Source of the DNA: Nitrospirota bacterium
Lineage (GTDB): Bacteria; Nitrospirota; Thermodesulfovibrionia; Thermodesulfovibrionales; JdFR-86
Assembly: GCA_037386965.1 (NCBI GenBank)
Contig: JARRLN010000002.1
Location: forward strand, 75,443-114,270
Reading direction: 5' to 3'
DNA length: 38,828 bases
In this document: piece by piece, positions 33,222-36,315 of the stretch
Numbering within the stretch: the stretch's first letter is position 1
Layout of the letters: every line of letters begins with the position of its first letter
The notes under the pieces: generated by a model
What the model saw: the letters and a program-made list of their open reading frames with translations, nothing else
The model's database searches: none
Told to the model about the DNA's origin: nothing
Translations under genes and position numbers: made by a program

Positions 33222-35396
33222 TCAGCGATTGCCCTTTTCCACGGGCTTCAGGCCCTCCAGGGAGAGCTCGAAGTTGGGCTCCGCGTCCCTGACCTCGGGT
33301 AAGCGGCCGAACTCCTCGAGGGCGTCCTTGACGCTCTGGCCTTTCCGGAGCTTGATGCGGTAGATGCCCAGGTCTTCCATGGCCTTCAGGACCTCGGCCT
33401 CGTGCTTGTGGATAACGGCGAGGGCCTCCTCGGGGCTCGTGCCCTGCACGAACTTCACGATAAGCTCGCCCGGCGCGTACATGCCCTCCCGCTCCACGAA
33501 GGCCCTTCGCTTGTTGTGGGTTATTTCCCGGAGGTCTTCGGCGTCCTTGACCACGTGCGGGGTGAGGAAGACCAGGAGGTTGGTCTTGGCATGGCTGGTG
33601 GTCTTGAACTTGAAGAGCCATCCCAGCAGGGGAATCCTGTGCAGCAGGGGCACCCGGGTCTCGGTCACCTCTTCCCTTTGCTGCATGAGCCCGCCGATGA
33701 CCACGGTCTGCTTGTCCTTGACGCTGACGACGGTGTTCGTGGAGCGTTTCCGGGTGGTGGGCCCCACGGTGGTGAAGACCTGCTCCGAGGTCTGCAGGAC
33801 GTTGGATATCTCCTGGTAGACTTCCAGCTTCACGAAGTCCCCCTCGGTTATCTGGGGGGTAATCCTGAGAATGATGCCCACGTCCTGCCGTTCGATGGAG
33901 GCAAAGGGGACCTCGTCGCCGGTGGTCAGACCCCGCTGTATCTTGGAGATGAACGGCACGTTCTCGGCAACGACGATCTCGGCCTCGGCGTTATCGGAGG
34001 TCAGGATCTGCGGGGTGGAAAGCACATTCACCGCGTCCCTGAACTCGTCGAGCTGGAAAAGCGCCGCGTACTGCGGAACGCTCAGGTCCACCGTCTCGCC
34101 GCTGGGGTCGGTCACCTGAAGGTTGAAAAACTGGGCGAGCCCGCCGGCCGTCAGGCCCGAAAGGCCCTGGACGATGGAGGCCATCGTGGAGCTGTCGATG
34201 GTGCCCACCCCCGTGATGAAGACGGGTTCCCCGTTGTGGCGGGTAATGGCGCGCCACTGGGAGCCAAGGTCCCGCAGCTTGTCCAGGGAGGCCTCCACTA
34301 TCATGGCCTCCACATAGACCTGCCGGCGCTTTATGTCCAGCTTCTTTATGACGGCCTCCAGGCTCTTGTAGTCCGCGGGGGAGGCCACGATGACCAGGGA
34401 GTTCGTAGCCTTGTCCGGCGTGATGCTTATGTCCAGGGAACGGAAAACCCCGCCGCGGGCGGCGGCGGGAGGCGCCCCCGGCTGGCCGGGCTTGGCCGTT
34501 CCGGCCTCCACCAGCTTCGTCAGGACGTCGGCCATCTCCTCGGCGTCCGCGTTTTCCAGGAAGTAGACGTTTATGGTGCCCTGGGTCTCCTTCGGAGGCA
34601 GGTCCAGGTGCTTGATGAGCCTCTTCATGGCCTCCCGTTCGCTCTTGCTCCCGAAGATGACCACGGCGTTGAGCCTCCGCTCGGCGATGGCCTTGCTCGC
34701 GGCGGGCTGCCGCGCCGCCCGGGCCTGCTTCTGGATGCCCTCGTTCAGAATCTTGGCCACGTCCTCGGCACTGGAATGCTCAAGGAAGACCACCTCCGGC
34801 TCCTCGCCGATAGTGGGGCGGTCGATGACGCTCAGGATGCCCAGTATCTTCTGCACGTTCAGGCCGGTGTCCAGGACCAGGAGAAAGTTCCCCGGACCGA
34901 AAGACGCGATATAGCCCGTGCGGGAGACCACCGGCTGCAAGAACCGGAGGGCATCGTCGGAGGAGATGTTCTTCAGCTCGATGAGGCGCGCGATGTAGTT
35001 ATCGTTGACCGGCGGGCGCTGCCTCGTCACTTGCACGCCGGACTGCCGGGCCTCGGAAGCGGGGGCTATCTTGTAGGCGTCCACCCCGGATGGCAGCAGG
35101 GCGAAACCCTTCAGGTCCAGCACCGAGCTGAACAGGTTGAAGGCGTCCTCGGGGCTGAGCTTGGTCGGGGCGATGATGGTAATCTTGCCCCTTACCCGCT
35201 CGTCGAATATGAAATTCTTGCCCGTGACCTCGCTGACGAACTTGGCCACCGCGGGAATGTCCACGTCGACGAAATTGAAGGTGACCCCGCCCGCGGGCGG
35301 GTCCGTGCGCTCGGCACGGGCGTGCCCGGCAAGAAAAAGGGCAAACGCAACGAGAAGAAAACACAAGACCGCTCTGGAAGGCCGTCTTTTCGTCAT
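33222..35396 (-). CDS. gspD: Type II secretion secretin with C-terminal subtilase-prodomain-like domain
   Basis: The outer-membrane secretin pore, 724 residues. Signal peptide 1-28 (ending GHARA) is followed by N0 (about 38-110, FNFVDVDIPAVAKFVSEVTGKNFIFD), N1-N3 repeats (to about 390) and the secretin core (about 440-625) ending with the family motif VPLLHRIPLLGWLF and VFLTPHVVKD. The last 82 residues (from 643) are not the usual S domain: GELIVKFVQGTSPEEALAVI, a helix, LGIYRIKLRKGQSVKDAL and PEVRDAEPNFEL match the subtilase/fervidolysin N-terminal prodomain pattern. It follows gspC with a short gap; the ribosome site is TTAGAGGTC. Other gsp genes are not in the window. Confidence 0.93.
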   Translation of the reverse strand: MTKRRPSRAVLCFLLVAFALFLAGHARAERTDPPAGGVTFNFVDVDIPAVAKFVSEVTGKNFIFDERVRGKITIIAPTKLSPEDAFNLFSSVLDLKGFALLPSGVDAYKIAPASEARQSGVQVTRQRPPVNDNYIARLIELKNISSDDALRFLQPVVSRTGYIASFGPGNFLLVLDTGLNVQKILGILSVIDRPTIGEEPEVVFLEHSSAEDVAKILNEGIQKQARAARQPAASKAIAERRLNAVVIFGSKSEREAMKRLIKHLDLPPKETQGTINVYFLENADAEEMADVLTKLVEAGTAKPGQPGAPPAAARGGVFRSLDISITPDKATNSLVIVASPADYKSLEAVIKKLDIKRRQVYVEAMIVEASLDKLRDLGSQWRAITRHNGEPVFITGVGTIDSSTMASIVQGLSGLTAGGLAQFFNLQVTDPSGETVDLSVPQYAALFQLDEFRDAVNVLSTPQILTSDNAEAEIVVAENVPFISKIQRGLTTGDEVPFASIERQDVGIILRITPQITEGDFVKLEVYQEISNVLQTSEQVFTTVGPTTRKRSTNTVVSVKDKQTVVIGGLMQQREEVTETRVPLLHRIPLLGWLFKFKTTSHAKTNLLVFLTPHVVKDAEDLREITHNKRRAFVEREGMYAPGELIVKFVQGTSPEEALAVIHKHEAEVLKAMEDLGIYRIKLRKGQSVKDALEEFGRLPEVRDAEPNFELSLEGLKPVEKGNR

Positions 35397-35412: not shown

Positions 35413-36315
35413 TTACCGAATCGTGTATGTCAAGGTCATTTTTTCTCCGCCGCGCACGACGTCCAGTTCCACCTTGTCCAGTCCCCGCAGGGCCGTGAAG
35501 GCCTGAAGGGCCACTTCGGGGTCCGAGAGCTTCAGGTTGTTGACCGCGCTCAGGACGTCTCCGTTGCGGAGCCCGAGGTTATCGTAGATGCCCCCGGAGC
35601 GCACCTCGCTGATGATGAACCCGTCCTGAACGCCGTCCACCACATGCGGAAGAAGGCGCGCGTCCGTCAGGACGTGCTTGGGATTGGCCAAGGAGGCATC
35701 TATGGCCTCTTTGTCCACGACGTAGGTGTTCTCCCCGGTCTGCCGGGCGAAGTCCTGGCGGGGTGGAGCCGCCGTGTGCCGCGACGGAGGGGGCTGCGCG
35801 GGCATCTTACCGGGCATCTTAAGTGTCTTTGCCGCCGCCATGGGTGAGACCTCGGCCAGGGGGACCCGCGTTTCGGCTCCGCCGCCCTCGTCGATGACGA
35901 TCTCGTTGGTGCCCACCCTGAGCAAGCGGCCCGCCCCGGGGACATGCTGTCCCGTCCTGAAAACCTCCTGCGTGCCGGACTGCCCGCTCACGATGGCGTA
36001 CCCGAAGCCCCCGGGCCAGGCCACCGTTCCCAGGAGCTTCAGGTTGGAGGCGGCTTTGGGGCGGGCCTTCTCGGCGGCGACCTTCGCCCGGCTGGCCGAA
36101 AGTGGGCTGAGCTTCCCCGCGGGGAAGCCGAAGACATTGTTTGAGAGGATGGGGGCGTAGCTCATCAGCGGCTCCGCCCCGGGACGCCCCTGCACGCGGG
36201 CCTCGCCTTTCGGCGCGGCGTCCTCCGCACCGGGGGCCGAAAGGAAAAACTTCACCGCATCCCGCGCCAGGAGAAGAAGCGCCAGGACCAGGGCGGAGAC
36301 CAGAAGGACATGCAA
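35413..36315 (-). CDS. gspC: Type II secretion protein GspC
   Basis: Inner-membrane clamp protein linking the secretin to the inner-membrane platform, 300 residues from the TTG at 36315. A single TM (about residues 4-18, LLVSALVLALLLLA) is followed by a linker, the HR domain (about 55-165, ILSNNVFGFPAG and NLKLLGTVAWPGGFGYAIVSG) that binds the secretin N0, a Pro-rich linker, and a PDZ domain at about 200-300 (GFIISEVRSGGIYDNLGLRNGDVLSAVNN). The frame stays open upstream with the plausible cytoplasmic leader RRGVIRIPAIPPRRAVTA, so a CTG or other non-standard start nearer the promoter is possible. TTG 36315 has GGAGGG eleven bases away. Confidence 0.88.
   Translation of the reverse strand: MHVLLVSALVLALLLLARDAVKFFLSAPGAEDAAPKGEARVQGRPGAEPLMSYAPILSNNVFGFPAGKLSPLSASRAKVAAEKARPKAASNLKLLGTVAWPGGFGYAIVSGQSGTQEVFRTGQHVPGAGRLLRVGTNEIVIDEGGGAETRVPLAEVSPMAAAKTLKMPGKMPAQPPPSRHTAAPPRQDFARQTGENTYVVDKEAIDASLANPKHVLTDARLLPHVVDGVQDGFIISEVRSGGIYDNLGLRNGDVLSAVNNLKLSDPEVALQAFTALRGLDKVELDVVRGGEKMTLTYTIR

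Follow-up and report, generated by a model that had tools for sequence, protein, structure and literature searches.

The type II secretion system (T2SS) secretins (GspD) of solved structure (5wln, 5wq7, 5wq8, 6hcg) share with the secretin described here an N0 domain, short secretin-N domains, the secretin domain and a helix following the barrel. In other GspDs the first helix of the S domain (alpha-11) contacts the neighboring subunit and is followed by alpha-12, which binds pilotins (PMC6532946). The prodomain of the subtilase fervidolysin (PF22148; 1R6V) is N-terminal on its protease, and in the prodomain complexes of BPN' and PfSUB1 residues of the Glu69/Asp71 (BPN') type cap two helices of the protease (PMC6993865). 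The propeptide fold also occurs apart from the protease in stand-alone inhibitors (MEROPS I9), among them SUB1-ProM, where a Glu and an Asn make up the corresponding pair (PMC6993865); such inhibitors are free small proteins for which inhibition has been shown, whereas the domain reported here is tethered to a channel and is at most a putative inhibitor.

The window, a stretch of 38,828 nucleotides from a Nitrospirota bacterium, encodes on its reverse strand a GspD of 724 residues (33222..35396) in which a subtilase prodomain appears to stand in for the S-domain end that binds pilotins in other GspDs. The open reading frame matches TIGR02517 (type_II_gspD) with 539 bits against a cut-off of 351, and also PF00263, PF03958 and PF21305. 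Its T2SS context is given by the adjoining upstream gspC (35413..36315, same strand; NF041515 GspC_delta, 178 bits; PF11356) and by gspE (679 bits) on contig C20 of the same genome. In this genome the T2SS genes are divided between the window, which holds gspC and gspD, and contig C20, where a run resembling gspE to gspL (L181) stops at the contig edge.

The earlier note had proposed that this GspD ends in a subtilase-prodomain-like domain, and profile and fold evidence agree. PF22148 (Fervidolysin_NPro-like; cut-off 21) matches residues 632-708 (33273..33503, reverse strand) with 60.5 bits (E 2.1e-16), and with 62.1 bits when the GspD tail alone is the query; the match begins about 10 residues earlier than had been noted, placing the domain start at 33503 rather than 33470. 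An AlphaFold2 model made with 78 homologues has the order E-H-E-E-H-E (beta-alpha-beta-beta-alpha-beta), with pLDDT values of 93-98 in the core block. Its best Foldseek match in the PDB is fervidolysin, 1R6V (E 4.8e-4), with the subtilisin prosegment 3cnq_P next and 1scj_B and 1spb_P close behind. 1R6V also ranks first in a profile search against PDB sequences; phmmer with the tail alone against the same sequences gave no significant match. The identification of residues 632-708 as a subtilase prodomain (NPro) of the fervidolysin type, with the propeptide fold, is well supported and is settled within the reach of sequence and prediction. Profile family and predicted fold are shared with fervidolysin, as are the Glu and Asn of the AEPNY motif, but the GspD domain lies at the C-terminus of a secretin rather than N-terminal to any S8 catalytic domain, with no catalytic domain in cis. 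It also has residues of its own in the joint alignment: a Tyr stands at a position that is mostly Glu in subtilases, and a Glu preceding the last strand is conserved, which indicates that its surface has changed.

The motif reads AEPNF in the window's GspD (residues 705-709; 33270..33284, reverse strand), and alignments to 1r6v and 1spb_P and the joint alignment make E706 and N708 the counterparts of Glu69 and Asp71 of the BPN' propeptide. It is followed by a C-terminal tail of 15 residues (33225..33269, reverse strand) with pLDDT mostly below 50. The most frequent ending among GspDs lies 5 residues after the Tyr of the motif, which equals the count in BPN' between H72 and Y77. Many GspDs, however, extend for a further 25 to >300 residues, and a product-like free C-terminus was therefore rejected as an essential feature. 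In L068 (4321-7227) the GspD continues past the prodomain through a long linker to a C-terminal SPOR match (PF05036, 22.2 bits), and the extensions of L045, L051, L052, L058, L067, L074, L082, L084, L089, L096, L098 and L114 look alike by eye. Such an apparent extension into a SPOR domain suggests envelope anchoring at the C-terminal end.

Similarity to the solved GspDs runs from about residue 38 to residues 629-642, and a post-barrel helix is predicted to span residues ~619-637, or 591-609 as the folded fragment is numbered (33486..33542, reverse strand). From the reach of this similarity and from the helix, which is in the position of alpha-11, the first S-domain helix appears to be kept, and the prodomain is predicted to take the place of the pilotin-binding alpha-12 that follows it in other GspDs. 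The suggestion that this is not the usual S domain thus holds for the pilotin-binding tail and fails for the first helix. The position at the secretin end is the same as that of the pilotin-binding S domain (PMC6532946), but it is occupied by a folded domain of ~80 residues, and no known pilotin family was found: PulS/OutS pilotins (PF09691) exceeded the cut-off in none of 61 genomes and AspS-type pilotins (PF16549) gave no match at all in the same 61, with the E. coli control matching. Pilotins diverge widely, so negative family searches of this kind weigh little. The fusion also shows how, throughout a class, the secretin end that serves elsewhere as the pilotin site has been remodeled with another domain.

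When the last 184 residues of the GspD were used as the query, matches ran through the prodomain in 38 of the 61 relatives, in many families of the order; the earlier note had suggested looking for the same fusion in relatives, where it recurs. In a wider sample of 396 genomes of the phylum, same-class matches run through the domain, with exceptions, and the listed matches outside the class end before it; one longer match outside the class (G071) has no PF22148 domain. The class is Thermodesulfovibrionia by its named relatives, the other named relatives being other Nitrospirota; the labels also include two 'Deferribacteres' and one 'Desulfobacteraceae', and a 'Deferribacteres' GspD (L067) is 93% identical to that of a Thermodesulfovibrio sp. 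Together the two samples yield 98 genomes with the fusion. The collection was scanned with one secretin motif as the seed, so fusions elsewhere are still possible. GspDs without the prodomain occur in genus g18 and others, and in G017, G229, G390 and G268 despite the presence of subtilases in the genome. A search of chiefly freely available papers found none that describes a secretin-prodomain fusion.

Recurrence in 98 genomes of many families, in nearly all cases in open frames and in separate assemblies, refutes the reading of the fusion as a frameshift, a misassembly or a chance similarity, which we give virtually no credence. The domain is also clearly under purifying selection, with dN/dS of 0.06-0.17 in all close pairs but one (0.48), values higher than in the secretin part. 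In a tree of 87 prodomains those of GspDs stand apart from those of subtilases (SH-aLRT 94, slightly short of the mark of 95 that the tool sets), the pattern to be expected from a single ancient fusion. It is well supported that a secretin acquired, long ago, the N-terminal prodomain of a subtilase of the fervidolysin type and has retained it as a C-terminal domain after the first S-domain helix. Stand-alone prodomains were considered as products of GspD fission and rejected, since the copy in G017 groups with subtilase prodomains, the fragment in G309 reflects a contig edge, and the copy in G268 lies just ahead of an S8 gene split over frames. In G017 a lone prodomain with an apparent signal peptide (L134 574-960) is encoded just upstream of a prodomain-S8 gene.

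An S8 gene was detected in 79 of the 98 fusion genomes and in none of the remaining 19, several of which are 98-100% complete and most of which retain the contact Glu; along the tree S8 switches between present and absent ~12 times, and the GspD prodomain persists. The client suggested by the earlier note, a subtilase lacking its own prodomain, was not found beside gspD. The T2SS-linked subtilases examined have their own prodomain, and so does the product of the only S8 gene of the window's genome, on contig C42 rather than beside gspD, which combines an NPro with an fn3 domain and ends in a CFI box. The gene adjoining this sole subtilase gene, divergently oriented (L182 7940-9979), has a trypsin-like GNSGGPL motif.

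Subtilase genes do lie within T2SS operons in several families. In family f10 the order gspC-D-E-F-G-H-I-J-K-L-M-N is closed by an NPro-S8 gene that carries a lipobox, and some members have a second NPro-S8 gene before gspC; the names gspE, F, H, I, M and N were assigned from gene position and size and from the prepilin motif. Acinetobacter GspN exports T2SS lipoproteins (PMC12802150), a role with which a lipoprotein subtilase following gspN is in keeping. In family f4 the subtilase gene follows gspF and precedes the pseudopilin genes, in G279 a subtilase gene is ahead of gspC, and in G031 an S8 domain is fused in frame to a complete GspG inside the T2SS operon. By a hand count, gspD and an S8 gene share a contig and lie no more than 20 kb apart in about 15 fusion genomes, compared with ~2-3 expected from genome sizes with kinship ignored.

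The residues that would contact a protease are largely retained and are among the most conserved positions of the GspD prodomain. The Glu equivalent to E69 is present in 43 of 47 subtilase prodomains, and in 50 of 52 GspDs from S8-bearing genomes versus 14 of 19 from S8-less ones (Fisher p 0.013, kinship ignored), a difference that stems from one family, f4, whose five S8-less genomes all have Lys or Arg there. Asn or Asp at the position of D71 is found in 43 of 52 and 15 of 19 respectively. Decay of the GspD domain upon loss of S8 was considered and set aside: the difference in score (p 0.065), like that in the capping Glu, comes without control for kinship, and a kinship-controlled pair test gave no support, but had no power because only 3 pairs were supported.

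The most likely mechanism, which we put forward tentatively, is that the prodomain is tethered at the secretin to dock or restrain folded subtilases. Some 15 NPro copies would surround the secretin on its periplasmic side, a ring geometry and placement carried over from other GspDs, and would engage the catalytic domain of a folded subtilase as a free propeptide or an I9-type inhibitor does, the client being probably a protease that this T2SS itself exports. The subtilase would so be held or restrained at the exit gate and the envelope shielded until export; binding, inhibition and timing alike are inferred. Retained contact residues and operon-encoded subtilases favor such a docking prodomain, with which the propeptide fold, the purifying selection and the BPN'-like spacing of the most frequent GspD ending also agree. 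The idea of the earlier note that the GspD domain could dock a subtilase gains indirect support in this way, although without the prodomain-less client. Several results count against docking: the 19 fusion genomes without S8, the prodomain already carried by T2SS-linked subtilases, a dispensable free tail, absence of the domain from some subtilase-bearing genomes, and the changed surface. The survival of the domain where subtilases are lacking, and its location at the pilotin site, favor instead a structural or assembly role, which is the main rival and almost as likely. The domain would then stabilize the secretin ring, or target it to the outer membrane in place of a pilotin, and bind no protease. 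The lack of pilotin family matches in the 61 genomes, the residues specific to GspD and the extension of some GspDs into a SPOR domain fit such a module as well, but the strong conservation of protease-contact residues and the replacement of the contact Glu in S8-less members of f4 do not, and the negative pilotin search lends it little given how far pilotins diverge. GspDs without the domain, in genus g18 and others, further indicate that the prodomain is not essential to assembly.

Clients might also be tethered more loosely, for example if the GspD NPro paired with the prodomain of the subtilase instead of its catalytic domain, which we consider improbable. T2SS-linked subtilases (f2, f4, f10) either have an NPro belonging to the same family or are located in operons of such genomes, and pairing is known for other ferredoxin-like domains; however, no NPro-NPro dimer was found, and the 19 genomes without S8 would offer no S8 client. 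Should docking or restraint by the tethered prodomain hold generally, most of one class would carry in its secretion gate a ring of prodomain-like inhibitors dedicated to keeping T2SS-coupled subtilases safe until export, a gate-tethered inhibitor of a kind not described before; this broader proposition we think rather unlikely as it stands. How the T2SS recognizes its clients, and how damage by proteases folded in the periplasm is avoided, could both be tested directly on a secretin that has a propeptide domain built in and subtilases encoded in its operons.

The fused gene of G031 (L122 10178-12823) is a frame of 882 residues comprising a subtilase prodomain, the S8 domain, fn3, a CFI-box C-terminus and the complete GspG pseudopilin (TIGR01710, 167 bits), and prepilin peptidase might separate the subtilase and GspG parts. 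The same layout of CFI box and prepilin site is seen in G008 (L223 6139-8862) and G049 (L224 1212-3935). In G261 the gene directly after gspF in the T2SS operon (L227 11397-13262) encodes a CFI-box protein in which no S8 motif is obvious, which suggests that the CFI box might serve as a sorting signal linked to the T2SS.
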